A stretch of 64,000 nucleotides of DNA, from the NCBI GenBank assembly GCA_017405965.1, contig JAFQZK010000004.1, forward strand, positions 62,001 to 126,000, in the 5' to 3' direction. This document shows, piece by piece, positions 11,160 to 64,000 of this stretch; position 1 is the first letter of the stretch, and each line of letters begins with the position of its first letter. Below the pieces are notes generated by a model. It did not search any database and was not told where the DNA came from. It saw nothing but the letters and a program-made list of their open reading frames with translations. The translations under genes and the position numbers were made by a program. This stretch comes from Muribaculaceae bacterium. GTDB lineage: Bacteria; Bacteroidota; Bacteroidia; Bacteroidales; Muribaculaceae.

Positions 11160-11301
11160 CTCGCTCATTGAGGTTAAATAGATTAGATTTGCAAATATAC
11201 ATATTTTCTTGATAAAAGCGCTGAAAAAGGGGAATCGAGGGGTAACAGTCTTGGCTATTTTCCCTAACTTGAAGTGGGAGAATCAGTTTTTTTGATTAAT
11301 T

Positions 11302-11442: not shown

Positions 11443-13398
11443 ATGAAGAAATTATTATTCCTGCTGACAGCAGTCATGCTGTTACCCGTGGCACTGAGTG
11501 CCCAATTGCTCAACAATCAGGAGATCCAAGTGCAACGTGCACAACTGATGCCGAAGAGCCTCACACATCAGTTCAAGGCTCCTGCTCGTGCCGACCTGGC
11601 TGAAAACCAGATGATTCTTGGCCACTATGACACCGACGACATTACAGTCGGCGGTTATCTGGGCTTGACCAATTTCGCTGGAGTCATTCCCATTGCTGTT
11701 GAACTCACTCCCGATGAGCTCGCTATGTTCCAGGGTGGCAAGATTGTCGCCTTCAGGGTAGGTCTTTCGGTTTCAACCGCTGTTTCTCGTGTGTTTGTAG
11801 GACCGTCGAACGATTCCGGCCTCGGCCCCTTCACCGAATGGAGTTGCAACGTCAGGTCTCAGGGATGGAACACGATTCCCGTCGATCCTCCCTATGAGAT
11901 CAATCTTGATGACGAAACCGGACTGTTCATCGGTTTTGACTACAGGCAGACCACAACCAACTATCCCCTCTCATATGTCGAGGTGGGTAACACCTATTAT
12001 AACACCTATGCCTATCTGACCTATCAGGGCACTACCGGTTGGTTTGACATCGGAACGAACGATTACGGCAACTTGAGTCTGCAATGCATCGTCGAGAGTG
12101 ACCAATTCCCCGAATACATCATCCAAGCCTATGGACTGTCGACAAAAAAATACATCAAGACAGGCGAAGATATCGAATTCTCATTCAATATCAAGAACGG
12201 CGGTATCGCTTCTGAAATTGCTGCCGGTGCAGTCACCTATGATGTGTTTATCGACGGCACTCAGGTTGCGACGTTGTCCAACACCGAAGCCTTTGGCAGG
12301 GATTATAAGTCATTATCCGACGTTGTCTCCTCGGCAGGCCTTGCACCTGGCAAGCACACGCTGACCGTTGAGATCGGCACCCTGAATGGCGAGCCCATCG
12401 AGAAAACCGTCACCATGGAACGTGAGTTCACCATCTATGAGTTCGGTTTTGCCCGTCAGATGCACTTGGTTGAACAGTTCACCGCTATCGGTTGCACTCA
12501 CTGCCCCAAGGGTACCCACATGCTGCAACTTCTCACCGAAATGCGCAATGACATCGCTTGGGTAGCTATTCACCAGAACTTCAATGGCACTGACCCCATG
12601 AGGACCGTGCAGTGTGACACTATCAACAACTATCAGGGTAACAGCTCATTCCCCTCGGCTTCATTCGACCGCACTGATGGTTGGGAGGAAGAAGGTGTCG
12701 TTTCTAACAGCATTGGTTATTACGCTGAATATCACCAAATGATTGCCGAAGAATTGAGCGCCTTCTTTGACGAACTGGGCGAGGCTCCCTCGTTTGCCAC
12801 CGTCAACATTAACAGCACGCTCGATCCTGAAACCCGCGAGGCTGTCATCACCATCAACGGTGAACTGACCCCCGACTTTGACCAGATGCTCGGTGCCGAC
12901 AGCAAGCTCACCGTCTATATTACCGAGGACGGCATCGTGAATCGTCAGTTAAATGACGGCACATGGGAACAAAACTATGTGCACAACGGTGTAATGCGCA
13001 GGGCCCTCGGCTCGGCGCTGGGCAACAACCTGAACCGCGACGGCAACAGCTATGAGAATGTCTATACCTACACCATTCCCTCGACCTGGAATCTCGACAA
13101 CTTGAATGTAGTGGCCTTCATCAGCCGTCCTCTGATCAACGGACGCACCGGAGTTTATACCGACCTGTTCGTCAACCAAGCCAACAAGCGCAAACTGGGC
13201 GAGTTTGACGAGCCGACGATTCGCGGCGACGTTGACGGTAACGGCGTTGTCAATATCGTTGATGTGACCTTGCTGATTCAATACGCGCTCTCGGGCCAAG
13301 GCGAGGGCATCAATGTCGATGCAGCCGATTTCACTGGGGACGGTGCCATCAACATCAATGACGTGACAACACTGATCCAGTATGTGCTCACGCTTTAA
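11443..13398 (+). CDS. Omp28-related secreted protein with C-terminal dockerin
   Basis: 651 residues. Signal peptide MKKLLFLLTAVMLLPVALSAQ; residues about 55-330 are beta-rich with no motif I recognise. The Omp28-type region begins near residue 340 with QMHLVEQFTAIGCTHCPKG, a thioredoxin-fold-like segment with a CxxC pair, continuing through SSFPSASFDR. The C-terminal about 65 residues carry two dockerin-type calcium loops (GDVDGNGVVNIVDVTLLIQY and DFTGDGAININDVTTLIQYV). Omp28 of Porphyromonas gingivalis is a surface adhesin/lipoprotein. A paralogue follows immediately (13664-15493). Its own promoter and terminator make it a single-gene unit. Confidence 0.88.
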   Translation: MKKLLFLLTAVMLLPVALSAQLLNNQEIQVQRAQLMPKSLTHQFKAPARADLAENQMILGHYDTDDITVGGYLGLTNFAGVIPIAVELTPDELAMFQGGKIVAFRVGLSVSTAVSRVFVGPSNDSGLGPFTEWSCNVRSQGWNTIPVDPPYEINLDDETGLFIGFDYRQTTTNYPLSYVEVGNTYYNTYAYLTYQGTTGWFDIGTNDYGNLSLQCIVESDQFPEYIIQAYGLSTKKYIKTGEDIEFSFNIKNGGIASEIAAGAVTYDVFIDGTQVATLSNTEAFGRDYKSLSDVVSSAGLAPGKHTLTVEIGTLNGEPIEKTVTMEREFTIYEFGFARQMHLVEQFTAIGCTHCPKGTHMLQLLTEMRNDIAWVAIHQNFNGTDPMRTVQCDTINNYQGNSSFPSASFDRTDGWEEEGVVSNSIGYYAEYHQMIAEELSAFFDELGEAPSFATVNINSTLDPETREAVITINGELTPDFDQMLGADSKLTVYITEDGIVNRQLNDGTWEQNYVHNGVMRRALGSALGNNLNRDGNSYENVYTYTIPSTWNLDNLNVVAFISRPLINGRTGVYTDLFVNQANKRKLGEFDEPTIRGDVDGNGVVNIVDVTLLIQYALSGQGEGINVDAADFTGDGAININDVTTLIQYVLTL

Positions 13399-13663: not shown

Positions 13664-15493
13664 ATGAGAAAATTATTATCACTCTTGATGGCAGCATTGC
13701 TGCTGCCGTTCGCATTGGGAGCACTGGATCTCCAGCCCAATCAGATGCTTATGGGGCACTACACATCCGATGAACTGGCCGAGACCGGTTGGGGAAAAAC
13801 CTTCCTTAGCGGTGACAACATCGTGGCCACCGACATCACGCCCGACGAACTCGCTATTTTTCAAGGCAGCAAGCTTATCGCCTTTCGTGTGGGTCTGGCC
13901 GAATCGACCCCTGTCACCCGTGTGTTTGTCATCCCTGTTGATACCGATGGCAATCCCACCGATGAAGTCACCGAGTGGTCTTGCAACGTCTCGGAGCAAG
14001 GTTGGAACCTGATTGAACTTGAGACCCCCTACGAGATTAATTTGCCCAGCGGTTACAGCCTGAGAATCGGCTTCGACTACTTACAGGAAACCAAGAATTC
14101 CAAGCCCCTCTCGGCAGTCAATGCGGGCACCATTTACCGCACCTTACACTTCAAGAACGGCAAATGGATGAACTATGGCGTGAACACCACCGGTAACCTG
14201 AGTCTGCAGTGCATCTGTGAGAACGATAACTTCCCTCACTACATCCTTCGCACCAACGACCTGTACTGCACCAAGAATCTGAGAATCGGCGATGACCTCT
14301 CGTTCTCGTTCCAGGCCTATAACCTGGGCAGTGTGAAAATCAACCCTGGTGAAGTCAACTTTGACGTCGCCATTGATGGACAGGTCGTGAAAACCTTCAG
14401 CAACGCTGAAACGCTGACAACCATGCCTGTCTATCTCTCGAACTCAATCAATACGGCAGGCCTCACACCGGGCCAGCACACTCTCACGGTGACCCCCACC
14501 ACCATCAACGGAGAACCTATCGTGGATGCAACGGCCTCGAGCGCCACGTTCAAGAGCTTTGAGTTCGGCTTCACACACCAGATGCATCTGGTGGAACAAT
14601 TCACCTCGACCAGCTGCACCTATTGCCCGGCCGGCACCGCCAACATCAAGAACCTTTCCGATATGCGTGGCGATATCGCCTGGGTAGCCATCCACGACAT
14701 CCAGAATCCGAACAACCCTGATCCGTTCACAACCTCGCAAGGCGATTCGATTACCTCCTTCGAGCGCATCGACGGTTTCCCCGAGGGCACCTTCGATCGC
14801 TCAATGGGCTTCAACGGAAACAGTCTTTATGCAGCCATTTCAGGTATACCCGCATCAGAGATGAGCACCTTCCTGGACTATGTATCAGAGACTCCGGCAT
14901 GGGCCACCATCAACGTGAGCAGCACCTATGACCCCGAGACTCGCCAGGCTGTCATCACCATCGACGGCCAAACAGAGGTCGATTTCGACACCCGCATGGG
15001 TAGCGACAGCAAGCTCTCGGTTTTTCTTACCGAGAACGGCCTCGTAGCTCCCCAAGTGAGCGGTGGCAACGACTATGTTCACAACAACGTGTTCCGCATG
15101 GCAATAGGTTCGGTCAAGGGTGTAGCCTTGAACAGGACCGATAACACCTACAAGAACGAATTCTCTATCGTCATCCCCGAAGAATGGAATGCCGAAAACA
15201 TGAACATCGTGGCCTTCATCAGCCGCCCGTTGCGCGCTAACGCACTCTCGGACCTCTATGTCACCAACGCCAACAAGCGCAAGCTGGGCGAAAACGACGA
15301 CGAGCCGACGGTGATCCCCGGTGACGTTGACGGTAACGGCATTGTCAATATCGGTGACGTGACCATGCTGATTCAATATCTGCTCACTGGCCAAGCCGAT
15401 GGCATCCATCTCGATGCCGCTGACTGCACCCAGGACAACGCCGTCAACATCAACGACGTGACAACACTCATCACTATGGTGCTCAACAATTAA
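13664..15493 (+). CDS. Omp28-related secreted protein with C-terminal dockerin (paralogue)
   Basis: 609 residues, signal peptide MRKLLSLLMAALLLPFALG. Same plan as the upstream gene: beta-rich N-terminal half, Omp28-type segment near residue 306 (QMHLVEQFTSTSCTYCPAG, again with CxxC), then SKLSVFLTENGLV and FISRPLR blocks shared with its neighbour, and two C-terminal dockerin-type loops (GDVDGNGIVNIGDVTMLIQY, NINDVTTLITMVL). It lacks about 35 residues found between signal peptide and domain in the first copy. The two genes probably arose by tandem duplication and are clearly diverged. Confidence 0.88.
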   Translation: MRKLLSLLMAALLLPFALGALDLQPNQMLMGHYTSDELAETGWGKTFLSGDNIVATDITPDELAIFQGSKLIAFRVGLAESTPVTRVFVIPVDTDGNPTDEVTEWSCNVSEQGWNLIELETPYEINLPSGYSLRIGFDYLQETKNSKPLSAVNAGTIYRTLHFKNGKWMNYGVNTTGNLSLQCICENDNFPHYILRTNDLYCTKNLRIGDDLSFSFQAYNLGSVKINPGEVNFDVAIDGQVVKTFSNAETLTTMPVYLSNSINTAGLTPGQHTLTVTPTTINGEPIVDATASSATFKSFEFGFTHQMHLVEQFTSTSCTYCPAGTANIKNLSDMRGDIAWVAIHDIQNPNNPDPFTTSQGDSITSFERIDGFPEGTFDRSMGFNGNSLYAAISGIPASEMSTFLDYVSETPAWATINVSSTYDPETRQAVITIDGQTEVDFDTRMGSDSKLSVFLTENGLVAPQVSGGNDYVHNNVFRMAIGSVKGVALNRTDNTYKNEFSIVIPEEWNAENMNIVAFISRPLRANALSDLYVTNANKRKLGENDDEPTVIPGDVDGNGIVNIGDVTMLIQYLLTGQADGIHLDAADCTQDNAVNINDVTTLITMVLNN

Positions 15494-35775: not shown

Positions 35776-37905
35776 TTAATTGTCTAAGATGGTACTGATC
35801 AACATGGTGACATCTGATACATTGATTTTTCCATCATGATTTATGTCAGCATTTTTAATTGTAACTAAAGATTCTTCATTAGTTAGAATAAAGCTAATCA
35901 AAGCCGTTACATCACTAATATTAATGAAGCCATCACTATTCAAATCGCCAAGCTCTGTATAGACTGTTACGAGACAGGTAGCAGGTATCGCAGTTCCATC
36001 AGTAGATCCGACTGTAATTGTTGTAGTTCCCTCTTTGATGCCAACAACCTGCACCTTACCATTCATAACCCTTGCAGCAGCCACTGTCGGCTCACTAGAG
36101 GTCACAGTAAACCCATCGGGCATGGATGGAGCAGACGGTGTGAGTGTCAACATATGGTTAGGAAGCAGCATCGCTTCTTGTTGGTCAAGTATTATTCGAT
36201 TGACAACTGAAACGTGGCAAATGGCTTGCATGCCGAAGCATGAAGCTATGATATCACACTCACCATAAGCAATGGCTGTCACTATGCCATTATCTACAAT
36301 AGCAACGGTCTTATCTGTTGAAATCCAATTAACATCTTTGTTAGAAGCATTATTAGGCTTAACAGTCGCTGTCAATTGAAATTGTTCTCCTAATTGTAAT
36401 TCGATATCATTCTCACTAACTACGATTTCTAAAGGTGCAATAGCATCACCTGATATGTTTTCAAAATTGCGCCAGCAAGGTGAAGTAAAATAGGCCGCTA
36501 ACGAAGAACTTGGCACATGCAGATTTGCAGAATAAATTGAAAACACTTCCTCGTTATAACAAGCAGGAGGTATGGGAGAGTAGCTATAAACTTCATGAAG
36601 AGCAGTACAACCAGAAAATGTTAATTGGCCAATTTCAGTAACGTGGTTGCCAATCTCAATACTTTTCAAATTGTTGCAATATCTGAATGCGTAATTACTA
36701 ATAACTGTGACAGAGTTTGGTATTGTGACATTGGTCAATTCAGTGCATAATCCAAATGCATACTCATTGATAGAGATAACAGAATTTGGGATAGTCACTT
36801 TGGTCAAGCCTTTACAGTTATAGAACGCTCCCCCTGCAATGCCTTTTGTGCCATTTTTTAATGTGATGTGTGATCCACTGGGCATAGTACCTTTATATTT
36901 GTAAGCGACCAAACCTGCATAGACTAAGCCATCGGATTGATTATTATACCATGGAGTACCATCAAATGCGAGACTTTCAATTGAGTTTACTGAGTTGGGA
37001 ATTACTATATTTGACAGGTTGCTGCAGCCCATAAATGCACCATAGTCAATAGATGATACTGAATTGGGAATATCTAAACTAGTTAAACTACTACAATTCC
37101 TAAAAGAATAAAATCCGATGGAAATGAGCGTATTAGGCAGCTCAATACTTGCTAAACTAGTACAGTTGTCGAACGCTTCGTTCGCAATACCTAGAGTGCT
37201 ATCTTGTAAAGTGATAGTTGCACCACTGGGCATATTTCCTTTATATTTATAGGCAATCCTGCCAGCATAAACTAAACCATCTGGTTGATTGTTATACCAT
37301 CCCGTCTTAGCAAAAGCGTCTCTGCATATGCGGATATGCGAATTGGGAAATACAATACTTGCTAGATTAGTACAGTTTTCGAATGCTTCGTAGCCAATGT
37401 ATCTTACTGAATTGGGAATTTCAATACTCGTAATGCCACTACAACCATAAAATGCCATGAGGTTAATCTTAGTGACAGAGTTACCAATTATGATGTTAGT
37501 TAGTCCATAACAACTCTCAAATGCATAGTTGTCAATCGTTGTCACTGAGTTGGGAATCTCTATGCTCTTCAAGCCTTTACAATTACAGAACGAAGAGTTT
37601 CCAATAGATATGACTGAGTTTGGAATAATTACACTTGTCAAACCACCACATCCATGAAATGCTTGATTACCTATGGCAGTAACAGGATAGGTTACTCCAT
37701 TATAAGTGACAGTTTCAGGAATAACAACCGAACCTGAATATTCATTTGAATATTCGGTACCATAAGATCCGCGACAAGAAACACTTGCATTAATGCCATA
37801 AATATTGTAGTAAATCCCATCGACTTCAAAGTCATGTGCTGCAGCAATTGTCGACAGCGATACAGCGGCTAACAACAAAGTGATGTTTTTGAGATAATTT
37901 TTCAT
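35776..37905 (-). CDS. BspA-like LRR protein with Ig-like domain and dockerin
   Basis: 709 residues. Signal peptide with LLLAAVSLSTIAAA, the same start as the larger LRR protein at 4.5-8.2 kb (HDFEVDGIYYNIYG), about 17 LRR_5 repeats (IPNSVxSIGxxAFxxC) to about residue 470, interrupted by two VYAGxVAYKYKGxMPSG units. A bacterial Ig-like (Big_2) domain follows at about 495-570 (VSENDIELQLGEQFQLTATV), a second Ig-like stretch, and a C-terminal dockerin-type pair (GDLNSDGFINISDVTALISF, DINHDGKINVSDVTMLIS). More AT-rich than comM beside it; the first cargo gene of the accessory island. Confidence 0.92.
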   Translation of the reverse strand: MKNYLKNITLLLAAVSLSTIAAAHDFEVDGIYYNIYGINASVSCRGSYGTEYSNEYSGSVVIPETVTYNGVTYPVTAIGNQAFHGCGGLTSVIIPNSVISIGNSSFCNCKGLKSIEIPNSVTTIDNYAFESCYGLTNIIIGNSVTKINLMAFYGCSGITSIEIPNSVRYIGYEAFENCTNLASIVFPNSHIRICRDAFAKTGWYNNQPDGLVYAGRIAYKYKGNMPSGATITLQDSTLGIANEAFDNCTSLASIELPNTLISIGFYSFRNCSSLTSLDIPNSVSSIDYGAFMGCSNLSNIVIPNSVNSIESLAFDGTPWYNNQSDGLVYAGLVAYKYKGTMPSGSHITLKNGTKGIAGGAFYNCKGLTKVTIPNSVISINEYAFGLCTELTNVTIPNSVTVISNYAFRYCNNLKSIEIGNHVTEIGQLTFSGCTALHEVYSYSPIPPACYNEEVFSIYSANLHVPSSSLAAYFTSPCWRNFENISGDAIAPLEIVVSENDIELQLGEQFQLTATVKPNNASNKDVNWISTDKTVAIVDNGIVTAIAYGECDIIASCFGMQAICHVSVVNRIILDQQEAMLLPNHMLTLTPSAPSMPDGFTVTSSEPTVAAARVMNGKVQVVGIKEGTTTITVGSTDGTAIPATCLVTVYTELGDLNSDGFINISDVTALISFILTNEESLVTIKNADINHDGKINVSDVTMLISTILDN

Positions 37906-51034: not shown

Positions 51035-52750
51035 TTACCAACCGGGGTTCTGGCCAATCTGCGGATTCAGGTTGCGCTGATCGTCGGGAATGGGGAACAG
51101 GTTGTACTTGGGATCCCACTTGCGGGGAGCACCGTTGTTGGAGCAGTTGATGTAACCGTCGGCGTCAACATCGACTTCAGCAAGGCTGATGGCATTAAAT
51201 CCGGCAACGTAAGCACCACGGCTCAGGTTGGGATTGTTGTCGGTGTCGAGCAGCGAGAGCTGGTTCCAACGGAGCAGCGACCAGTAACGGTCGTTCATGC
51301 AGTACATCATCTCGACGCGGCGCTCACGGCGAACCTCCCAAATGATGGGGCTAACGCCCATGTTGTTGGCGGGATCGGCCTCTACGCTGGTCATCAGGTG
51401 AGGCATGCTCACGCGGTCACGCAGCAGGTTGATGGACCTGTCGAGGTCGTTCTGGGTGATGTTACCCAGCTCGGCGCAAGCCTCGGCATAGTTCAACAGG
51501 ATCTCGGCATACCAGAAGATGGGAGCGTCGGTCCAGTTACCATAGGTGCTCTGACGGTTGGTGTTGTCGATCAGGTTGGTATCGAACAGGTAAACACCAT
51601 AACCCGTCGAAGCGGTGGACTGAGCACCGCCAAAGCGGGCATAACCACAGCCGGGGAATTGGAGGATCTTGTCCACCTGAGCGCTCAGGCGCGGGTCGCG
51701 GTTAGCGAGCACGTTGCTGATGTCGATGTGGGAAGCCTCGCCCAGGCCCGAGTTGTCGTCAAGGACAACCACGGTACCGTGGTCGGTCTTGTTCAGGCTG
51801 GTGGTAGCCAGGGGCTTACCATCCTTGAACAGGTAGCTGTCGAAGGCATCCTTGGTCATACCGTTCACCTGGGTAGAACCGCAAGTGTAGTCGATGGTAC
51901 CGTGAGCAAAGGTGCTCTGGATGTACTTCTTGTACATGATCATCTCATTGTTACCGGCCAGGTCAAGCGAGTTGAAGTTAGCCTGGTAGTTGCCGTTCAG
52001 GCTGAACTTGCCCGAACTCATGATAGCCTCACAAGCGCTCTTGGCCTCGTTCAGGTAACGGTTGGCACGGTCATTACTCTTGGTCACATACTTGCTGTAG
52101 TCACCCTCATAGAGGCAAACCTCGGCCTTCATGGCCAGAGCAACCCACTTGTTGAAGGCGGTACGCGAGTTGTCATTGTCGGTGATGTTGGCGCAAGCGA
52201 AGTTCAGGTCCTCAAGCACCTTGTCCATCACGTCGTTGCGGGGCTGACGGGGACCGTACAGAATCTCAGTGTCATTGGGATCCAGCTCCTTATCCACCCA
52301 GTAGCAGTCACCATAGGCACGAACGAGCTTATAGTGTTGCCATGCACGATACAGGCGGCCGATACCCAGCCAGTTGGCCTTCTTGGCATCGCTCATCGAC
52401 TCAACGTTAGGCACAGCGGCAATCAGGGTATTGGCACGACGGATTTCCACATAGGGAGTGTTCCAAGCGCCAGCGCTACCGGGAACGTTCATGTAGGTCC
52501 ACTTCGTGATACCGGTCGAGGCCTGGTCATCGTTCAGCGTGTTGAAGTAGTAGTCACCGCTACCGCTACCATAACCCGTGAAGGTGTTGTAGAAGTAGTT
52601 GGCAAACAGCTGGACATTGGTCTCACTGGTAAAGTAGTTGTCCTTGGTAAACTGATCATAGGGTTCAGTGTCGAGAATATCATCGCAAGATGCGAGCGAC
52701 AGCAGGACAACACCCAGTCCACACAGTATAATTGATTTCAGTGATTTCAT
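51035..52750 (-). CDS. SusD/RagB-family outer-membrane lipoprotein
   Basis: About 571 residues. Lipoprotein signal MKSLKSIILCGLGVVLLSLA then SCDDILD (cysteine at 22), the TPR-like SusD fold with VRAYGDCYWVDKELDPND, DEVLEDLNFAC-like helices and the conserved C-terminal WEVRRERRVEMMYCMNDRYW. It forms the lid of the SusC transporter encoded immediately before it (33-base gap). The glycan is unknown; no glycoside hydrolase is adjacent. Its signal-peptide DNA shares AAATCAATTATACTGTG with the second susD (60861). Confidence 0.93.
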   Translation of the reverse strand: MKSLKSIILCGLGVVLLSLASCDDILDTEPYDQFTKDNYFTSETNVQLFANYFYNTFTGYGSGSGDYYFNTLNDDQASTGITKWTYMNVPGSAGAWNTPYVEIRRANTLIAAVPNVESMSDAKKANWLGIGRLYRAWQHYKLVRAYGDCYWVDKELDPNDTEILYGPRQPRNDVMDKVLEDLNFACANITDNDNSRTAFNKWVALAMKAEVCLYEGDYSKYVTKSNDRANRYLNEAKSACEAIMSSGKFSLNGNYQANFNSLDLAGNNEMIMYKKYIQSTFAHGTIDYTCGSTQVNGMTKDAFDSYLFKDGKPLATTSLNKTDHGTVVVLDDNSGLGEASHIDISNVLANRDPRLSAQVDKILQFPGCGYARFGGAQSTASTGYGVYLFDTNLIDNTNRQSTYGNWTDAPIFWYAEILLNYAEACAELGNITQNDLDRSINLLRDRVSMPHLMTSVEADPANNMGVSPIIWEVRRERRVEMMYCMNDRYWSLLRWNQLSLLDTDNNPNLSRGAYVAGFNAISLAEVDVDADGYINCSNNGAPRKWDPKYNLFPIPDDQRNLNPQIGQNPGW

Positions 52751-52783
52751 AATTATATCTGTTTTAATTGAGTTCATTAATCA

Positions 52784-55700
52784 TTACTTCACAATAATCT
52801 CGCAGATCGAAACACGATTCCAGCTCAGTTCATCAAACATGTCGCTGATGCCCTGACCCTGGGCGTTGATGCGCTTGGCATCAATGCCATACTTCTTCAC
52901 GAGCATATCCTTCACGCTGGCGGCACGGCCCTCAGCGAGCTTGATATTGTGGTCGGCAGGACCGTCCTTGGAGGCATAACCGTTGATGGTGCAGTTGGCC
53001 TCGGGATGGCTCTTCATGTAAGCAGCGATGCGCTCTACGTTGGGCTGCTGGTCGGTGCTAACGGCGGTCTTGTTCACGGGGAAGTGAACCAGGATGGTCA
53101 TGTACTGCAGCGACTTGTCAATCATGCCGGTCTTGCTCTTCTGGCAGTCGTTGAGGTCCTTCTGGAGCTGGTTGGCACGGTTGTTGGCAGCGTTGAGCTG
53201 GTTCTGCAGGTCGGCCAGACGGGCGTTGTAGCTGTTCTCGGCATCGGCGAGCTGGGAGCGCAGGTCATTGATCTGTGCATTCAGGGCGCTGTTGTCAACG
53301 GGAGCGGCAACACCAGAGCGGGAGTTGCTGCCGAAGGTCAGCTGCAGACCCACACTGTAGGTGCGCATGATAGGATCGGTACGACCCCAAACACCGTTAC
53401 CATAGCTACCCACACCGGTGTTGATCTCGGGATCGAGACCGGTACCGTTGCTGTGGTTGATGATGTCGAACAGATTGTCGGTCGAAGCATAGATGCGCAG
53501 CTTCTCGATGAGAGCCTTGCGCGTCAAGTGCTGAGGCAGCGTGTAACCCACGGTGATGTTCTTCATGCGCAGGTAGCTCATGTTCACCAGATACTTGGTC
53601 TGGGGATAGAAGTTGAACTTACCCAGATCGAGAATGTCGCTCGAAGCGGTACCACGGCCAGCGCCACCAGCCCACATACGGGGGAATTTGGCATCCTGGT
53701 CGATAACACCGTTAGCATAGTCAGCCTCGGTTATATAGTCAGTCTGGTTAGTGTAGATAGCGTCAGCACCACGCATGAACGGCATCACGAATGCCGACTG
53801 GGTCCACATGTCGCGCTTACCCACACCCTGCAGGTAGAAGTCAACGTCGAAGCCCTTCCAGGCAGCGCCCAGACGCAGTGAGTACTGATAGCGCGGGGTG
53901 AAGTTACCGATGCGCTTCAGGTCACCGTGATCATCGGGAGTACCCTTACCCCAGTCGATCACGCCGTCACCGTTCAGGTCCTTGAACTTGATGTCACCAG
54001 GGCCGTAAACAAAGCCATTGGACTGCAACTTGCTCTGGTCGGCAACACCGTTGGCATAGGTACCATCGGCGTTGAAGTCCTTGAAGTCGAAGTAGCGATC
54101 GGTCTCAAAGCCCCAGATCTCGCCATACTCCTTACCAGAGTAGTTGGTGTTGATCATGTTGTTGCTGTCCCACTTGGTAATTGTGGCCTTATAGTCATTC
54201 ACGATGGCAGTAGCATAGAAATCAACAGCACCGAAGCGGTTGTGATAGTCAAGCTGGACTTCCCAACCACGGGTGCGCAACGAACCAGCATTCTCAAAGG
54301 CAGCACTTGCACCGATGACCGAAGGCAGTGCCTTGCCGGGAGCGAGCATGTCCTTGTTGGTGCGCTGGAACCAGTCGGCAGTCACGTTCAGGTGGCCATT
54401 GAAGAAGGCCAGATCAACACCAAAGTTGAGGGTCTGGATGGTCTCCCAGGTGAGAGACTCAGAAACCATCTTGGGAGTGCCAAAGTAGTCATACTTGGAG
54501 TTGCCAGTGCCAATCCAGTTTACACCGTTGGTCACCTTGCCCATGGTCTCAAGGAACATGTAGTTACCAACCCTGTCGTTACCGATTTCACCATAGGATG
54601 CACGGAGCTTGGCATTGCTGATGGTATTCTTGATGGGTTTCCAGAAGGACATCTCACTGATGCGCAAGCCCAGCGATGCCGAGGGGAAGAATGCCCACTG
54701 ATCCTTCTTGGGGAACTTACTCGAACCGTCGTAGCGGCCATTCAACTCGAGCAGCAAGATACCCTTGTAGTCATAGTTGATGCGGCCGAAGAAGCCTGCT
54801 GAGCCCCAGTGGTCGTGCTGGTGGCTGTAGCTATAGAACTCGTTGGTCAGAGCCAGCTCGGGCAGGTTCAGGTCCTGGAGACCGTGCTGCTCAAAGTAGA
54901 GGTACTCATACTCGTACTTCTCCATGTTGGCACCAACCTTGAAGTTGAAGTTGTGGGCATCCTTAATCGACTTGAAGAAGTCGAAGTAGCCGTTAGCTAC
55001 ATGGCCGTTCCTGAAGCTGCGGTCGGTCTCGATGAAGGTCGAACCAGTGATGTCCACGGGACCCTGAGGATTCAGACCCCAAGTGTTGTAAACCACCGAG
55101 GGGAGACCAATGCCCTTGTAACGACCTTCAGTCTTGATGAAGGTGTAGTCGGCATTGAAACTCAGTCCGTAGCCGAAGTCAATCTTGCCAAATACGCCAA
55201 GACGGGTGTTGTGCCTCTTGTAGTAGCAATCGCCACCGGTGTTGCGGCCACCAATCATCGTGCGGGCGTCATACTGCTGGCCGTCGTTAGGATCTACAAA
55301 GTAGCCGTAGGGGCCGAAGAACGAACCCCAGCGCCACAGGTACTGATAGGTACCGGCACCACGCTTGTAGGGGGTGTTATAGGTCCTGTCAACATAGCTG
55401 ATGCGGGTACCGAGTTCCAACCAGTCGGTAGCACGCACCGACAGGTTAGCGGTAACATTGTAACGACGCAGTTTATCGGGGTTGAAGTTCATCAACGACT
55501 GCTTCTGGTTATAACCTACCGAGGTGTAGAAGTTGATGCGGCCCGAATTGCCGGTCACACTCAAGGTGTGGCTCTGCGAGGGAGCGTGGTTGTTGAAGAT
55601 GATGCCGGGCACATCCCAGTTGGCATAGTAACCGTTCTCGTCATAGTCGTCACCATAGACCATCTCACGATACATCTCCTTGATGTCGCCATGCTTCTTG

Positions 55701-56623
55701 ATCCAGTTGTTGATACCGTTCTGGAAAGCCTCACTATCCATGTACATACCGAAGAGCTCCGATGCAACACCCATGCGGTGGTTCACGTCGTTAAGGGCGG
55801 CCACCTGGGTGGGAACATTGGGATAGTCGGGCAACGTGGTTGCCTGGCTCCAAGCGAAGTTGTTGTTGTAGCTGATCCTGACGTTGTCCTTCACGCGGGC
55901 GGTCTTGGTGGTGACCATAATCACACCGAAGGCTGCTTGCGTACCGTAAATCGAGCTCGAGGCAGCGTCCTTCAGGACACTGATGTTCTCGATGTCGGCG
56001 GTATTCAGGTCGCTCAAGTTACCGGGAACACCATCAATGATAACCAGCGGGCCGGCAGTGCCGTCACCGGACAGCGTACCGATACCACGGATCACTACCG
56101 AAGCATCAGCGCTGATGTCACCGTTAGCGTTCAAAATGGTCAAGCCAGGGACGGTACCCTGAAGATTCTTGGCCACGTCGGTCTCGGACTTGGAACCGAG
56201 CACCTTGTCAACGTCGACGGTGCTCACAGCACCGGTCAGGTTGGCCTTGCGCTGCGTACCGTAACCAACGACAACGACCTCATCGAGTTTCGCGTTATCC
56301 TCGGCGAGAACCACGCGCATGCCGCTGGCAGCGCGCACGGTCTGCGTCTTGTAGCCGATAAACGAAACCTGAAGCTTAGCGTTGGGGCTAGCTTTGAACG
56401 AGAAGTTACCGTCCACATCGGTCGATGTGCCACGGGTCGTTCCAACCTCGACAATGCTGGCGCCGATGACGGGTTCTCCCTGTTCATCGACAACACGGCC
56501 TGTCACAATGCTGGTGGCGGAATTAGCCGACACCTGGGGCGCAGGTGCTGCAAAGGCCTGACTGTTGTAGCCAGTGCCGCACAGCATCAACAAGGCGCCC
56601 AAAAGAGCTAAATGTCTTTTCAT
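52784..56623 (-). CDS. SusC/RagA TonB-dependent transporter fused to OmpA-like domain
   Basis: About 1279 residues. Signal peptide (MKRHLALLGALLMLCGTGYN), carboxypeptidase-regulatory-like domain (VTGRVVDEQGEPVIGASIVE, about 40-115), DEVVVVGYGTQRKANLTGA and the plug (VIRGIGTLSGDG, LVIIDGVPGN, VLKDAASSSIYG), then the barrel ending near RTYSVGLQLTFG (about 1098). The chain continues with a coiled coil (about 1113-1166) and an OmpA-like domain (about 1171-1279: FPVNKTAV, PNVERIAAYMKSHPEA, INGYASKDG, LAEGRAASVKDML, NRVSICEIIV). SusC proteins normally end at the barrel. In the OmpA loop the usual Asp (HTD) is replaced (YAS), though the conserved Arg (GRAASV) is kept. Transcribed with susD1. GTG at 56629 is an alternative start. 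Confidence 0.94.
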   Translation of the reverse strand: MKRHLALLGALLMLCGTGYNSQAFAAPAPQVSANSATSIVTGRVVDEQGEPVIGASIVEVGTTRGTSTDVDGNFSFKASPNAKLQVSFIGYKTQTVRAASGMRVVLAEDNAKLDEVVVVGYGTQRKANLTGAVSTVDVDKVLGSKSETDVAKNLQGTVPGLTILNANGDISADASVVIRGIGTLSGDGTAGPLVIIDGVPGNLSDLNTADIENISVLKDAASSSIYGTQAAFGVIMVTTKTARVKDNVRISYNNNFAWSQATTLPDYPNVPTQVAALNDVNHRMGVASELFGMYMDSEAFQNGINNWIKKHGDIKEMYREMVYGDDYDENGYYANWDVPGIIFNNHAPSQSHTLSVTGNSGRINFYTSVGYNQKQSLMNFNPDKLRRYNVTANLSVRATDWLELGTRISYVDRTYNTPYKRGAGTYQYLWRWGSFFGPYGYFVDPNDGQQYDARTMIGGRNTGGDCYYKRHNTRLGVFGKIDFGYGLSFNADYTFIKTEGRYKGIGLPSVVYNTWGLNPQGPVDITGSTFIETDRSFRNGHVANGYFDFFKSIKDAHNFNFKVGANMEKYEYEYLYFEQHGLQDLNLPELALTNEFYSYSHQHDHWGSAGFFGRINYDYKGILLLELNGRYDGSSKFPKKDQWAFFPSASLGLRISEMSFWKPIKNTISNAKLRASYGEIGNDRVGNYMFLETMGKVTNGVNWIGTGNSKYDYFGTPKMVSESLTWETIQTLNFGVDLAFFNGHLNVTADWFQRTNKDMLAPGKALPSVIGASAAFENAGSLRTRGWEVQLDYHNRFGAVDFYATAIVNDYKATITKWDSNNMINTNYSGKEYGEIWGFETDRYFDFKDFNADGTYANGVADQSKLQSNGFVYGPGDIKFKDLNGDGVIDWGKGTPDDHGDLKRIGNFTPRYQYSLRLGAAWKGFDVDFYLQGVGKRDMWTQSAFVMPFMRGADAIYTNQTDYITEADYANGVIDQDAKFPRMWAGGAGRGTASSDILDLGKFNFYPQTKYLVNMSYLRMKNITVGYTLPQHLTRKALIEKLRIYASTDNLFDIINHSNGTGLDPEINTGVGSYGNGVWGRTDPIMRTYSVGLQLTFGSNSRSGVAAPVDNSALNAQINDLRSQLADAENSYNARLADLQNQLNAANNRANQLQKDLNDCQKSKTGMIDKSLQYMTILVHFPVNKTAVSTDQQPNVERIAAYMKSHPEANCTINGYASKDGPADHNIKLAEGRAASVKDMLVKKYGIDAKRINAQGQGISDMFDELSWNRVSICEIIVK

Positions 56624-57060: not shown

Positions 57061-60000
57061 ATGAAAAAACAATTAGCACTGTTGGCCGCCCTGGCAATCG
57101 CCTGCGGAGCACCGGCTGGGATGACATCGTTCCCCAGCACGGGTTTCACAGCCGAGGCCCAGGCCAACAAAGTCTCTGGCGTCATACGTGACGCCCAAGG
57201 TGAGCCCCTCATCGGTGCGACCGTCAAGGTCAAGGGTACCAACCGCGGTACCGCCACCGATGTCGACGGCAAGTATTCAATCGTCGCCAACCGTGGTGAC
57301 GTGCTCGTTGTGTCCTACATCGGCAGCAAGCCCATGGAAGTAACCGTGGGCAGCGGCACCATGGACATCGACATGCAGGCCAACGACCAAGTCCTCGACG
57401 AGGTTGTTGTAACCGCACTCGGTATCCGCAAGGACAAGAAGTCGCTGGGTTATGCAGTCGACGACTTGAAGGCCGATGAGCTGATGCGCAACAAGAGCGC
57501 CAACGCCATCAACTCCCTCTCGGGTAAGATTGCTGGTGTGAACATCACCCAGTCTTCTGGTGCCGCCGGTTCGGGCGCCCAGATCATCCTGCGTGGTGGT
57601 ACCTCGGTTGCTGAGAACCGCGACTCTCAGCCGCTGTTCGTTGTGGATGGTGTCATCTACGACAACTCGGCAGGTATCGTAGGTAACTCGGCATTCGACG
57701 GTATGATGAACAGCGCAACCACTTCTTCCAACCGTGTGATGGATATCAACCCCGAGGATATCGAGAGCATGTCAATCCTGAAGGGCCCGGCCGCATCGGC
57801 GCTCTACGGTTCGCGTGCTGCCAACGGTGTTGTGATGATCACCACCAAGAAAGGTAAGGAAGGTCACACCGAGATCAGCTTCTCGGGTAAGATGATTGCC
57901 TCGATGGTTAAGGACCTGCCCAAGACCCAGAATCAGTTCGTGCGCGGTTACATGACCGACATGTACAACGACGCTGGTGCATGGACCGGTGTTGAGATCA
58001 AGGACGACAGCTACAACTCATGGGGTCCCAAGCAGAATGTTCCCTTCTATGACAACCTGAAGAACTTCTTCGAGACGGGTATCATCTGGGACACCAACCT
58101 GAGCGTTAGCGGTGGTACTGCCAACAACAACTTCTTCCTGAGCGGTTCATTCTACGATCAGGACGGTATCGTTCCCACCACGGGCTACACCAAGACGACC
58201 TTCCGCTTCAACGGTGAGCAGAAGGTGGGCAAGTTCACCTTCGGCGCCAACGCTGCCTACAGCGATGCCCGCACGGTGAAGACCCTGACCGGTGCCGCTC
58301 TGTACGGCTCCAGTGGTACTGGTGCCCTCTACGCTGCCTACAACTGGGCTCCCAGTGATGACATGCGTCACTACCTCAACGATGACGGCACGCGCTATCG
58401 CATGTTCGGTGACCAGTTCCAGCCCTGGGACGAGCGCGACAACCCCTATTGGATTGTCAACAAGAACAAGATGACCGATGACACCGAGCGTTTCACCGGC
58501 AACTTCAATGTGAAGTGGGATATCTTCGACTGGTGGTGGGTTAGCTACCGCATGGGTGTCGACAGCTATACCACCCAGAGCCACAACGAAATCGCTCCCG
58601 GCGGTGCCATCAAGCAGATCTGGCAGCGCGGTATGTTGAGCGACAACATGTACAAGTATCGCTACCTGAGCAACAACTTGATGTCGAACTGGAACAAGCA
58701 GTTCGGTGACTTCAACATCAACTTGATGCTGGGTGGATCGACCGATTACACCAAGACCCGTCGCGACTATGAGTCGGCTTGGAACTTCGCAGTAGCTAAC
58801 TTCTTCAGCTACGAGAATGCCAGCGATGCCGACAAGAAGTTCTCGCACGGCAGCAGCAAGAAGCGCATGGTATCGGCCTTCGGTGAGTTCCGCATCGACT
58901 GGCGCAACGCCATCTTCCTGACTGTTACCGGCCGTAACGACTGGGATTCGACCCTGCCTAAGGACAACTGGAGCTACTTCTATCCCAGTGTGAGCGGCGC
59001 TATCGCCTTCACCGAGCTCTTCCGTGAGAGCCTGCCCGACTGGTTCTCGTTCGGTAAGATCCGTGCCAGCTGGGCCGAGGTAGGTAAGGGTACCAACCCC
59101 TATGTTACCAACACCTATCTGTGGCCTGTGGGCACCTATCTGGAGGGTATGGTCGGTCTGGGTAACACCTGGACCCGCGGTAACCCCTATCTGAAGCCCG
59201 AGCGCACCCGTTCGACCGAGGTTGGTCTTGAGCTGCGCTTCATCCAGAACCGCTTGAAATTTGATGTGGCTTACTACACCAACAACTCGTTCGACCTGAT
59301 TCTGCAACCCCGTGGCCCGCAGTCAACCGGTTACATCTTCTGCTCGGTTAACTCTGGTGACGTTTACAACAAGGGTCTTGAGATCAGCCTGAGCGGTACC
59401 CCCGTACAGCGCGAGAACTTCATTTGGGAAACCGGTATCAACGTCTATGGCAACCGTGGCACCGTGGGTGACCTGGTTAACGGTATCGACGTTATGTACC
59501 TGACCGACGTACAGTATGGTGGCGCCAAGGCTGCCAGCTACAACCATGGCAACTTCATGGGTATCGACGGTACCAAGTGGAACCGCACCAGCGATGGCAA
59601 GCTCATCCTCGACAAGAACGGCTTCCCCACCACCGACAGCAAGGCCTATGAGGTCGGCGACCGTGAGGCCAAGTTCCAGGGTGGTTGGAACAACACCTTC
59701 ACCTTCTTCAAGAACTGGACCTTCAACATGTTGTGGGAGTTCCGTTATGGCGGCGACGTCTTCAACGGTACCAAGTATGCCATGTCGATGAGCGGCGTGA
59801 GCAAGCTCAGCGGCGACTGGCGCAACGAGTCCCTCACCATCGATGGTGTGATCGACACCGGTAACAAGGATGCTAACGGCAATCCCATCTATCAGGACGT
59901 GAGCAACACCTGGACTGCTGACAAGAACTATACCTTCAACGGCAACGAGACCAGTGGCTACAACATCATCAAGAGCTACTACACCGGTGCTTACAACTAC

Positions 60001-60828
60001 GAGGTTCGCAACTGGATCACCTACGTGAAGAGCCTGCGCCTGCGCACCATCTCGCTGACCTACGATGTTCCCCGCACCCTGCTGGCCCGCACCAAGTACA
60101 TCAAGCGTGCTGCCATCACGGCTTCGGCCAACAACCTGTTGCTGTTCACCAACTACGACGGTGATCCCGAGGTAGCTGCTTCGGGTGCCGGTATCGGTGG
60201 TTCGTCTTCGGTAGGCTTCGACTACTGCGGTGTTCCCGCTACCCGTTCCTATGCTATCGGCGTTAACCTCGTCTTCGGTACCGACCTCACTGCTCCCGCT
60301 CGCGTGAACACTGCCGAGCTCGAGCTCCTCAACGGCCAGATCAACGACCTGCGCAACCAGATGGCCAACGCTCAGAACGCCAGCAACGCCCGCATCGCAC
60401 AGCTCGAGAACGACCTCGCTGCTGCCAACCGTGCACTGGCCAACTGCAAGAACGACCTGAATGCTGCCAAGAACAAGCCCGCAACTGTAGTTGACAACAG
60501 CAAGCAGTACATGAACGTGCTCGTTCACTTCCCCGTGAACAAGACCGCCATCGGTGCCGATCAGCGTCCCAACGTTGAGCGCATCGCTGCTTACATGAAG
60601 AGCCATCCCGAGGCTACCTGCGAAATCAAGGGTTACGCTTCGCCCGAGGGCAATCAGGACAACAATATCAAGCTCGCTAACGGCCGTGCCGCCAGCGTGA
60701 AGGATATGCTCGTCAAGAAGTATGGTATCGCTGCCAACCGCATCAAAGCCGATGGCCAGGGTATCAGCAAGATGTTTGACGAATTGAGCTGGAACCGTGT
60801 TTCCATCTGCGAAATCATCGTTAAGTAA
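57061..60828 (+). CDS. SusC/RagA TonB-dependent transporter fused to OmpA-like domain (second)
   Basis: About 1255 residues. Signal peptide MKKQLALLAALAIACGAPAG, regulatory-like domain (VSGVIRDAQGEPLIGATVKV), DEVVVTALGIRKDKKSLGY, plug (IILRGGTSVAEN, LFVVDGVIYD, SILKGPAASALYGSRAANG) and barrel. From about residue 1086 it carries a coiled coil and, from about 1150, an OmpA-like domain very close to that of the first SusC (MLVKKYGI, FDELSWNRVSICEIIVK identical). The beta-barrels are much more different. Codon use is strongly biased to GGT/CGC/AAC, suggesting high expression. ATG 57061 chosen: a 23-codon extension from 56992 has no signal peptide. Confidence 0.94.
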   Translation: MKKQLALLAALAIACGAPAGMTSFPSTGFTAEAQANKVSGVIRDAQGEPLIGATVKVKGTNRGTATDVDGKYSIVANRGDVLVVSYIGSKPMEVTVGSGTMDIDMQANDQVLDEVVVTALGIRKDKKSLGYAVDDLKADELMRNKSANAINSLSGKIAGVNITQSSGAAGSGAQIILRGGTSVAENRDSQPLFVVDGVIYDNSAGIVGNSAFDGMMNSATTSSNRVMDINPEDIESMSILKGPAASALYGSRAANGVVMITTKKGKEGHTEISFSGKMIASMVKDLPKTQNQFVRGYMTDMYNDAGAWTGVEIKDDSYNSWGPKQNVPFYDNLKNFFETGIIWDTNLSVSGGTANNNFFLSGSFYDQDGIVPTTGYTKTTFRFNGEQKVGKFTFGANAAYSDARTVKTLTGAALYGSSGTGALYAAYNWAPSDDMRHYLNDDGTRYRMFGDQFQPWDERDNPYWIVNKNKMTDDTERFTGNFNVKWDIFDWWWVSYRMGVDSYTTQSHNEIAPGGAIKQIWQRGMLSDNMYKYRYLSNNLMSNWNKQFGDFNINLMLGGSTDYTKTRRDYESAWNFAVANFFSYENASDADKKFSHGSSKKRMVSAFGEFRIDWRNAIFLTVTGRNDWDSTLPKDNWSYFYPSVSGAIAFTELFRESLPDWFSFGKIRASWAEVGKGTNPYVTNTYLWPVGTYLEGMVGLGNTWTRGNPYLKPERTRSTEVGLELRFIQNRLKFDVAYYTNNSFDLILQPRGPQSTGYIFCSVNSGDVYNKGLEISLSGTPVQRENFIWETGINVYGNRGTVGDLVNGIDVMYLTDVQYGGAKAASYNHGNFMGIDGTKWNRTSDGKLILDKNGFPTTDSKAYEVGDREAKFQGGWNNTFTFFKNWTFNMLWEFRYGGDVFNGTKYAMSMSGVSKLSGDWRNESLTIDGVIDTGNKDANGNPIYQDVSNTWTADKNYTFNGNETSGYNIIKSYYTGAYNYEVRNWITYVKSLRLRTISLTYDVPRTLLARTKYIKRAAITASANNLLLFTNYDGDPEVAASGAGIGGSSSVGFDYCGVPATRSYAIGVNLVFGTDLTAPARVNTAELELLNGQINDLRNQMANAQNASNARIAQLENDLAAANRALANCKNDLNAAKNKPATVVDNSKQYMNVLVHFPVNKTAIGADQRPNVERIAAYMKSHPEATCEIKGYASPEGNQDNNIKLANGRAASVKDMLVKKYGIAANRIKADGQGISKMFDELSWNRVSICEIIVK

Positions 60829-60860
60829 TGATCAACTGACTTTAAAAAACAGATATAATT

Positions 60861-62741
60861 ATGAAACTTTTCAAATCAATTATACTGTGCGGCTTGGGCG
60901 CTGCGATGTTATCGCTGACCTCTTGCAACGACTGGCTTGACGTGAACGTTGACCCCGATAGCCCTTCGGCCGAGTCCACAACCTACGACCAGCGTCTGGC
61001 GCACATTCAGTTTTATACCAACAGCGGTCTGCAGTTCGGCGCATGGCGTACCACCATGGCCATGGGTGACTGGACCCGCAACAATGGTGGCGGTAACTAC
61101 TGGCACGTTTCCTATTGGTATCCTGTTGACGGCCAGGTGACCACGGTTTATCAATGGTGGTTTGTTGGCGCTTATGCCAACGTGCCTGACATGATCAAGA
61201 AGGCTGAAGAGGTCGAGAACTGGCAGTTTGCCGGTGCCGGCTATCTGATCAAGGCCTATGGCTTCATGGCCATGACCGACCTCCACGGTGAGATGCCTTA
61301 CACCCAGGCTGGTGCTGAGCCCGCCACCCCCGAGTATGACACGGGTAAGACCATCTATCTGGGATGCTTTGAGTGCATCGACAAGGCTATTGAGTACCTC
61401 GAGAAGGGACAGAGCCAGGATCCCAAACTGCCCACGCTGGCAGCTGGCGACTGGTGGAACCACGGTGACCTGAACAAGTGGATCAAGCTCGCCTATATGT
61501 TGAAGGCCCGCTGGATCAACAAACTCAACAAGAAGGCTGCCGGTAGCTACAAGGATGGTAAGTATGATGCCGACGAGATCCTGCGCTGCCTCGACAAGGC
61601 TATGCAGAGCAATGCCGACAACACCATCGTCAACCACACCGACGACAACGGTCCCACTCACGACAACCTCGGTTGGGATGAGCCCGTTGACTACTCGCCC
61701 CTGTTCTCGGTTAGCGGTATGAACTCTGGTTACATGGCAACCAAGATGCTCTATGACAACCTGACCAACTTCGCTGGTAAGGGTGTTGAGGATCCCCGTG
61801 CCGACCACATTCTGCCCTGGGCTTACAGCCCCAATAGGAGTGAAGTCGGTGTCGATGATGCTGGTGTCAAGTGGGATGGCCACTGGCGTCGCACGCTGGG
61901 CGTTGATATGGCCAGCGACATCAACAGCCAGGGTGGCCCCCTGCGCGCCATGTTCAACACCAGCACCAACAGCTGGTACATCAGCACCACTAACGAGGCC
62001 CGTCTGGGTGATACCGTCTATATCGAGGGTACCAGCGACTGCAAGGGTTACTTCGCTAACCCCAGCATCCTGTACTGCCGCGCCGGTAGCGGTCAGTTCC
62101 AGTCGGCTGAGTCAGGTACGTTCTACACCCGCGTGAGCTCGCCTACCTACATCGGCACCTATGCTGAGTGCTGCTTCATCAAGGCCGAGACCCTCCTCAA
62201 GAAGGGTGACAAGGCTGGCGCTTACGATGCCTACAAGAAGGGTGTCAAGGCTAGCTGCGAGCTGATGAATGAGAAGCTGGAAGCATGGGTCGCCGAGGAT
62301 CCCAGCCTTGCCGACTGCCCGTCCTTCACCCCGATGACCGACGATGCCATCAACAACTTCGTGGACAACGGTATCGGCACTCAGGCTGAGTTGACCATTG
62401 GTCACATCCTCATGCAGAAGCGCATCGCCCTCATGTTCTCCTACGAGATCTGGAACGATATGCGCCGCTATGACTTCGATCCCAACATCTTCTTCGGTTG
62501 GAAGATTCCCGCTTACCACTACAAGGTGGCTGCCGCTATGCTGGCTATCCCCGAGGGCAAGCAGTATCGCCGCTGGCGTCAGTGCTCGCACGAGTACAAC
62601 TACAACAGCAAGAACCTGCAAGCCATCGGCAGCCAGGTTCCCGGCGCCCGCATGACCGACGGTGAAGGTAAGGAAGTGATGTGGAACCGTCAGGATGACG
62701 CTTGGACCATCCCCGTATGGTGGGACAGCAACCAGGAGTAA
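60861..62741 (+). CDS. SusD-like outer-membrane lipoprotein (SusD-like_2 type)
   Basis: 626 residues. Lipoprotein signal MKLFKSIILCGLGAAMLSLT then SCNDWLD (cysteine at 22). The body fits the SusD_like-2 group: VNVDPDSPSAEST, GFMAMTDLHGEMPYTQAG near 140, AYMLKARWINKL near 215, and C-terminal HILMQKRIALMFSYEIWNDMRRYDF. It pairs with the SusC encoded 32 bases upstream. No degrading enzyme follows; a strong terminator does. Confidence 0.93.
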   Translation: MKLFKSIILCGLGAAMLSLTSCNDWLDVNVDPDSPSAESTTYDQRLAHIQFYTNSGLQFGAWRTTMAMGDWTRNNGGGNYWHVSYWYPVDGQVTTVYQWWFVGAYANVPDMIKKAEEVENWQFAGAGYLIKAYGFMAMTDLHGEMPYTQAGAEPATPEYDTGKTIYLGCFECIDKAIEYLEKGQSQDPKLPTLAAGDWWNHGDLNKWIKLAYMLKARWINKLNKKAAGSYKDGKYDADEILRCLDKAMQSNADNTIVNHTDDNGPTHDNLGWDEPVDYSPLFSVSGMNSGYMATKMLYDNLTNFAGKGVEDPRADHILPWAYSPNRSEVGVDDAGVKWDGHWRRTLGVDMASDINSQGGPLRAMFNTSTNSWYISTTNEARLGDTVYIEGTSDCKGYFANPSILYCRAGSGQFQSAESGTFYTRVSSPTYIGTYAECCFIKAETLLKKGDKAGAYDAYKKGVKASCELMNEKLEAWVAEDPSLADCPSFTPMTDDAINNFVDNGIGTQAELTIGHILMQKRIALMFSYEIWNDMRRYDFDPNIFFGWKIPAYHYKVAAAMLAIPEGKQYRRWRQCSHEYNYNSKNLQAIGSQVPGARMTDGEGKEVMWNRQDDAWTIPVWWDSNQE

Positions 62742-63194: not shown

Positions 63195-64000
63195 ATGAAA
63201 AAACAATTAGCACTGCTCTGCACACTGGCGATAGCCATGGGAATTCCCGCTGGACTGGTCCCGAACCACTCCAGCACGGGTTTCACGGCTGTGGCCCAGA
63301 GCAACCGAGTTTCGGGCGTCGTGAAGGACGCCAACGGAGAGCCGATGATTGGCGTTAATGTAAGGGTAAAAGGCACAAATACGGGTACGACCACCGATTT
63401 GGATGGCCGATATTCGATTAAGGCCGACCCCAACCAGACGCTTGTCTTCTCCTTTGTGGGCTATGATGCGATCGAAGTTCCTGCGTCACAAGCCGCTAAC
63501 GTTCAGTTGTCCGAAGGCGCCAATACCCTGCAGGATGTGGTGGTAACGGCCGAGTTCGGTATGAAACGTGTCGCCCGCACCGTGGGTTCCTCGGTGCAGA
63601 ACGTGAAGGCCCAGGACATTATCGAGTCGGGCCGCACCGACTTCATCTCGGCCCTGCAAGGTCGTGTGTCGGGTATGAGCGTTGTTAGTTCGGGTGGTGC
63701 CCCTGGTGCCTCAACGACTGTAGTACTGCGCAGTGCCACGTCACTGAGCGGTAACAACCAACCGCTGTATGTCATCGACGGTATCCCCATGAACAACACC
63801 TCGTTCAACCCCACGACTGGTTTGGCAGTTGCCGATGGTGGTTCAGCCCTCGCAGGCAGTGGACTGTCGCCCCGTTCGACCGACTACTCGTCACGTGGTA
63901 ACGACTTCAACCCCGAGGACATCGAGTCGATGACCGTGCTGAAGGGTGCTGCCGCAGCCGCTCTGTATGGTAGTGACGCTTCGAACGGTGCCATCATCAT
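63195..64000 (+). CDS. SusC/RagA TonB-dependent transporter, 3'-truncated by window
   Basis: 268 residues visible, open to the window end. Signal peptide MKKQLALLCTLAIAMGIPAG, nearly the same as in the second SusC, then the regulatory-like domain (VSGVVKDANGEPMIGVNVRV), LQDVVVTAEFGMKRVARTVG and plug motifs (VLRSATSLSGNN, LYVIDGIPM, MTVLKGAAAAALYGSDASNG). The bases around the start (AGTGCGTATGAAAAAACAAT, continuing identically for 6 more) match those of the second susC. Whether it too carries an OmpA domain cannot be seen. Confidence 0.93.
   Translation, partial: MKKQLALLCTLAIAMGIPAGLVPNHSSTGFTAVAQSNRVSGVVKDANGEPMIGVNVRVKGTNTGTTTDLDGRYSIKADPNQTLVFSFVGYDAIEVPASQAANVQLSEGANTLQDVVVTAEFGMKRVARTVGSSVQNVKAQDIIESGRTDFISALQGRVSGMSVVSSGGAPGASTTVVLRSATSLSGNNQPLYVIDGIPMNNTSFNPTTGLAVADGGSALAGSGLSPRSTDYSSRGNDFNPEDIESMTVLKGAAAAALYGSDASNGAII

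Follow-up and report, generated by a model that had tools for sequence, protein, structure and literature searches.

A C-terminal OmpA-like tail on neighbouring SusC-type importers: a probable periplasmic tether, apparently captured once and copied between susC-susD units

Why would an importer of the SusC family carry an OmpA-like domain behind the last strand of its barrel? The question is raised by a 64,000-nucleotide stretch of a Muribaculaceae genome (GCA_017405965.1, contig JAFQZK010000004.1, positions 62,001 to 126,000; hereafter the window), in which a preliminary description, made from the sequence, had pointed to one SusC transporter extended by a coiled coil and an OmpA-like, peptidoglycan-binding domain.

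Three adjacent SusC proteins with an OmpA-like tail

The reading frame of this protein (SusC1) is indeed uninterrupted between 56629 and its stop codon at 52784 (1281 residues), and the family model TIGR04056 matches residues 42-1099 up to its last position (981/981) with 790 bits, against a curated cut-off of 368.25 bits. Family matches follow one another in the order carboxypeptidase-regulatory domain, plug, barrel and PF00691, the last with 49.7 bits (cut-off 27.2). In the model of SusC1, which at full length (pLDDT 57.5) is too weak for geometry, the last strand comprises residues 1088-1099, and 182 residues lie beyond the terminal Phe of the barrel. The extension had been placed at 52784-53287, a span that covers residues 1115-1281 only; it does exist, and it starts after F1099 (window 53332).

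The same plan was found in SusC2 (TIGR04056, 637 bits; PF00691, 44.8 bits) and in the adjoining SusC3 (TIGR04056, 635.6 bits), and the SusC/RagA signature TIGR04057 scored 55.4 and 62.3 bits in two SusCs of the window (cut-off 46.2). Seventeen SusCs of this genome exceed the TIGR04056 cut-off, and three of its eight PF00691 matches fall in SusC frames, which are the three neighbours. susC1 and susC2 are divergent, susC2 and susC3 (wholly and partly in the window, respectively) are neighbours, and each of the three tailed genes is directly followed by a gene for a SusD-type lipoprotein; beyond the window, susC3 is followed by susD3 and then by the gene of a 292-aa protein. The cluster consists of SusC and SusD genes and this single protein without a Pfam match, and its flanking genes are presumably those of an NAD kinase, PhzF and CstA. 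From a comparison of signal peptides, that of SusD1 probably starts at ATG 52750.

Table 1. Window coordinates of the tailed susC genes, their parts and their susD partners
Feature	Position	Strand	Remarks
susC1	52784..56623	-	SusC/RagA-type importer with C-terminal tail; likeliest start ATG 56623; frame open from GTG 56629
SusC1 tail	52784..53331	-	residues 1100-1281 and stop, past the final barrel strand
SusC1 helical, coiled-coil-like spacer	53135..53293	-	residues 1113-1165; helix 22-74 of the tail model
SusC1 OmpA_C-like domain	52838..53083	-	residues 1183-1264; PF00691, fold matches
SusC1 ligand-equivalent codons	~52970-52972, 52946-52948, 52925-52927	-	Ser1220, Asn1228, Arg1235
susD1, partner of SusC1	51035..52777	-	PF07980, PF14322
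Shared DNA block, unit 1 copy	52685..53275	-	common to units 1 and 2; coil to SusD lipobox Cys
susC2, second tailed SusC	57061..60828	+	likely start ATG 57061; frame open from GTG 56992
SusC2 tail	60277..60828	+	residues 1096-1278 and stop; PF00691 at residues 1180-1261
Shared DNA block, unit 2 copy	60337..60926	+	
susD2	60861..62741	+	SusD-like_2 / SusD-like lipoprotein; PF12771, PF12741
susC3, third tailed SusC, first part	63195..64000	+	ends past the window, at contig 128902

The helical linker and complete OmpA C-terminal-like domain that had been read from the sequence were borne out when the tail was modelled, both the helix and the OmpA fold being predicted with good confidence. The model contains a 53-residue helix, and its fold matches are to the OmpA_C fold, including Pal in complex with TolB and YfiB in complex with YfiR. 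The spacer gave weak matches to many coiled-coil families, all under cut-off. Three side chains (Asp576, Asn584 and Arg591) are described as holding the DAP residue in Porphyromonas gingivalis PorE (PMC7192894). When these positions were mapped by motif spacing and the aligned rows of OprF and Acinetobacter baumannii OmpA (AbOmpA), their SusC1 equivalents were Ser1220, Asn1228 and Arg1235, the pocket retaining two of the three DAP side-chain ligands. Asn and Arg are present in 75/75 fused tails, and so is Ser in place of the ligand Asp (in both cases a script scored 74 tails and the last one was read by eye). The Ser/Asn/Arg triad also occurs in 38/38 rows of stand-alone OmpA-like proteins (some rows identical), suggesting that loss of the Asp is a mark of the subfamily rather than decay following the fusion. 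With Ser in every row, affinity may be low or the ligand another one; the domain would work like peptidoglycan-binding OmpA_C domains, and we do not call it one because the ligand Asp is absent. This absence, the tail on three adjacent SusCs and the closely related stand-alone protein of this genome all go beyond the preliminary description.

Distribution, origin and spread of the tail

We collected 75 distinct fused frames of at least 1000 aa from 33 named metagenome-assembled genomes (MAGs) of several projects and from this genome, leaving out shorter frames (in L087, L092/L115, L095, L115 and L127) and two duplicates. The titles of the named relatives, which are MAGs of uncultured gut bacteria, give Muribaculaceae, Prevotellaceae, Porphyromonadaceae or Bacteroidales; going by these titles most are ruminant-associated, with roe deer, goat, sheep or buffalo mentioned in several. 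Within the genus, 37 of 101 genomes carry the tail in a frame of at least 1000 aa, and a 38th (G026) has it in a 417-aa frame that is perhaps cut by a contig end. Larger samples were assessed by their best ~150 matches, with at most 14, 8 and 5 candidates scored per genome for family, order and phylum. Among the matches listed for the family (247 genomes) and the order (393 genomes), frames of more than 1000 aa belong to one genus, save for a 2217-aa frame with an OmpA match (G422:C198); among those listed for 395 genomes of the phylum, none of the matches to a barrel-plus-tail profile spans both parts outside this genome. A common, already described SusC subfamily, which had been named as the finding that would undo the case, is therefore not seen among the listed matches of these samples, and a divergent, independent fusion elsewhere is conceivable beyond the best ~150.

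Recurrence of the fusion in the neighbouring gene, in a third gene and in 75 frames indicates that it is neither chance nor artefact. All named members are metagenome-assembled and a few frames are split or shortened, as would be expected if assembly or binning had joined two genes; nevertheless, with 75 distinct and uninterrupted frames of at least 1000 aa from 33 named MAGs and this genome, and with the joined part under selection, we rejected this explanation, whose probability we regard as negligible. The tail is under selective constraint: in five groups of 5-7 chosen sequences (NG86), dN/dS was 0.09-0.19 for the OmpA domain, 0.20-0.30 for the spacer and 0.08-0.20 for the barrel.

The search for orthologues covered this genome, 21 others of the genus in which no fusion was found and 4 from other genera (26 in all), and tail-less ones were obtained for SusC1 in four genomes (68-69% identical) and for SusC2 in eleven, ten of the genus (63-78% identical). 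All 22 tail-less loci read (11 for SusC1, including distant relatives at ~50%, and 11 for SusC2) end at the last strand of the barrel, 20 with Phe and 2 with Leu; a stop codon after the barrel, proposed beforehand as evidence against the fusion, is seen only in these tail-less orthologues of other species. Gene order is the same and a tail match absent in G086 and G048, which have the divergent SusD1-SusC1/SusC2-SusD2 arrangement, and in G004, which has SusC2-SusD2-SusC3-SusD3 and the 292-aa protein in tandem. When fused unit 2 was aligned to the tail-less unit of G063, susC and susD were 77% and 76% identical in DNA, and 607 bases lay between the aligned susC and susD parts of the fused unit vs 60 in G063. 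Beside the tail-less susC2 of G063 (L219) lies a stretch resembling the start of susD1 (173 columns, 81%), with no SusC1 orthologue listed; it is perhaps a remnant or a lone susD1.

Within this genome, and leaving SusCs aside, the tail has its nearest relative in a 422-aa OmpA-like protein (L045:700-1968), with 57% identity across the tail region. When 75 fused and 30 stand-alone tails were placed in one tree, the fused ones formed one clade (SH-aLRT 95), whose sister (node 97) is made up of stand-alone OmpAs of the same genus, from this genome, ten other sampled fusion-bearing genomes and two where a fusion was looked for and not found; the genus has further stand-alone OmpAs, which branch outside both. 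The stand-alone type of the fusion-bearing clade, with no fusion found, occurs in G073 (94% complete) and G031 (57% complete), which speaks against too simple a scenario. The 57% identity and the sister clades support common descent of coil and domain in the tail and the stand-alone OmpA. The tail has a single origin, one capture being the simplest reading of one clade of fused tails, and a separate capture by each SusC is unsupported by this topology.

The tailed barrels, however, are not one clade. In a tree of 16 of the 75 tailed barrels and 14 plain SusCs of this genome, forcing them together cost 323.6 log-likelihood units (AU p 4e-38), and the origin of all tailed SusCs by duplication of one tailed SusC was rejected by this test. 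Full support was obtained both for two plain SusCs as the sister of group 4 and for a separate clade that unites groups 2 and 3 with other plain SusCs, and group 1 lies outside both clades; these placements put the tail on at least three SusC lineages, finer placement being unsure owing to long branches among the plain SusCs. Group 4 is represented in other genomes and absent from this one; its members (L122, L126, L129 and similar loci) lie on the contig of the main cluster, ~40 kb away, in for example G057 and G066.

Between representatives of the groups, barrels are 27-35% identical and tails 63-85%. The SusC1 position is occupied by two types of barrel, which are 52-53% identical and bear tails 81-94% identical (L097 excepted). 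Two frames (L097:6716-10498 and L091:1345-5142) combine a group-2 SusC barrel with a SusC1-type tail, as if exchange of tails were still ongoing. Units 1 and 2 share a 598-column DNA block (77%) that runs from the coil through the OmpA domain, stop codon and spacer and reaches, in the signal peptide of SusD, the lipobox Cys; the rest of the two units yielded just a pair of short matches, of 94 and 39 columns, and SusD1 and SusD2 are 26% identical. SusD1 of tail-less relatives has a different signal peptide (4/4 read), and SusD2 of tail-less G068 and G004 has the type now found on SusD1, suggesting that unit 1 received its copy from unit 2 or unit 3. Synonymous-codon identity of the OmpA part was high everywhere (72-91% within and 77-90% between genomes, for chosen pairs; the L117_661p pair is off, as its frame end differs), and the case for copying rests on the shared block and the before/after alignment.

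A putative wall tether and its alternatives

What could the tail be for? Tethering is the best-supported use, considering an OmpA-type donor native to the cell, a pocket that is two-thirds kept and invariant, a constrained domain and a narrow spacer length (80-88 residues from barrel end to domain core in 66/66 spacers measured, of 75 tails). We favour, with some reserve, the view that these proteins are TonB-dependent SusC importers with an added OmpA-derived periplasmic tether, captured once and copied between susC-susD units, and that their import pores probably double as rivets between the outer membrane and the cell wall. In an ancestor within one genus, the 3' end of an ompA-like gene (spacer and OmpA domain) would have been fused to a SusC past its final barrel strand, and the captured tail would then have been copied between susC-susD units, at least one copying taking along spacer DNA and the SusD signal peptide. 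The barrel would fold normally, its terminal Phe becoming chain-internal; ~80-88 mostly helical residues would cross away from the membrane into the periplasm and the globular domain may grip stem peptides of peptidoglycan through Asn and Arg, the importers thereby serving as staples kept in position between outer membrane and cell wall. With such a tether, importers would be kept from moving sideways or outward, and the membrane would gain further links to the wall. The earlier suggestion that the tail resists the pulling force of TonB is weak by reasoning: TonB pulls inward, whereas a flexible tether resists outward or lateral movement. In known cases proteins of the donor type do link membrane and wall, OmpA and Pgm6/7 being so described (PMC6112661).

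A long helix could, however, serve assembly instead of tethering. The main rival holds that the tail is an oligomerisation module, with homo- or heterotrimers of SusC1, SusC2, SusC3 and the stand-alone OmpA clustering importers and wall contact secondary or lost; it is the main one because Pgm6/7 are reported as trimers (PMC6112661), and it would also agree with the 53-residue predicted helix, with weak matches (all under cut-off) to TolA_bind_tri, a trimerisation family, by the spacers of the stand-alone protein and SusC2, and with the Ser in the ligand triad. We nonetheless consider it unlikely: in all five groups the spacer is less constrained than the OmpA domain, the pocket Asn and Arg are invariant, the heptad register of SusC1 and SusC2 is weak and broken (as scored by a crude script), and known SusCD complexes are described as dimeric (PMC7782687). 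Docking of the domain not on peptidoglycan but on some other protein of the periplasm or outer membrane, such as a factor for assembly or one linked to TonB, would fit the change from Asp to Ser and the Pal-TolB and YfiB-YfiR complexes among the fold matches; yet the invariant Asn and Arg speak against it, as does the lack of a conserved partner gene other than susD in the clusters compared, making it improbable. As for a neutral hitch-hiker, a recombination accident and absence from most relatives of the genus are what a functionless captured tail would show, but dN/dS of 0.09-0.30 across the tail, invariant pocket residues, a narrow spacer length and spread to at least three SusC lineages leave it very little room.

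Beyond the tether itself, we tentatively suggest, as a reading that may well fail, that it is a copyable 3' module from one OmpA capture, copied in tracts of tail, spacer and SusD signal peptide onto at least three SusC lineages as the barrels before it and the SusDs after it changed, that importers took on a share of the structural task of OmpA and that mixed SusC/OmpA assemblies may arrange import sites along the peptidoglycan. SusC2 ranks first of the 17 SusCs in codon bias (0.708), with SusC1 (0.646) and SusC3 (0.601) mid-table, the stand-alone OmpA at 0.698 and a 403-aa EF frame, itself in the reference, also at 0.698; with one tailed SusC out of three in the top rank, it becomes less likely that the tail went by choice to the most abundant importers.

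Relation to known systems

The preliminary description had spoken of a TonB-dependent glycan transporter. Family membership stands, and TonB-dependent import by the tailed SusCs would follow from it; 'glycan' is unproven, since SusC2 is nearest, among solved relatives, to BT_2264 and the cluster has only SusC, SusD and the 292-aa protein. The BT_2264 complex is described with a peptide (PMC7782687), and the nearest solved relative of SusC1 is the SusC of 8aa4, titled dextran utilisome. Solved SusC/RagA proteins (BT_2264, BT1763, the dextran SusC of 8aa4 and P. gingivalis RagA) have, as here, a carboxypeptidase-like domain, plug, barrel and adjacent SusD; unlike the tailed SusCs, those matched end at the barrel and none matches the tail, and no PDB chain among the matches listed covers both parts. 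Stand-alone OmpA-like proteins of the order (~380-430 aa), which from size and plan we take to be relatives of P. gingivalis Pgm6/7, share helical spacer, OmpA domain and Ser/Asn/Arg triad with the tail; they have a small N-terminal domain that is not TonB-linked, where the tailed proteins have a SusC before the coil. OmpA, OprF and A. baumannii OmpA have a small structural barrel or porin rather than a TonB-dependent importer, and the aligned OprF and AbOmpA rows have the Asp that tailed SusCs lack. PorE, a Bacteroidota protein, likewise has an OmpA_C-like domain; its structure with a fragment of peptidoglycan is available, and a role as wall bridge has been proposed for it (PMC7192894), but it is described as a lipoprotein with TPR and propeller domains (PMC5053529), has no barrel and keeps the ligand Asp. 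One survey of Bacteroidota states that no pal gene was detected (PMC12204202).

As the preliminary description supposed, no characterised protein combining SusC with an OmpA-like or peptidoglycan-binding domain turned up in the full texts searched, with subscription literature largely outside their scope. If the tail binds peptidoglycan, these would be, within that literature, the first TonB-dependent importers with a built-in wall anchor. Tailed and tail-less units in the same gene order form a natural before/after pair for asking whether transporters gain from wall ties and how importers are placed, and the locus records a domain appended behind the terminal strand of a barrel and then copied between paralogues.

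Elsewhere in the window, four proteins of this Bacteroidota genome carry a type I dockerin (PF00404) at the C-terminal end, two of them of BspA-type leucine-rich-repeat kind and two with an Omp28 domain (genes at 4495-8205(-), 11443-13398(+), 13664-15493(+) and 35776-37905(-)). The gene at 8724-11168(-) encodes an 814-aa protein made mostly of tetratricopeptide repeats, with a third-position GC of 0.45 that is low compared with its neighbours.
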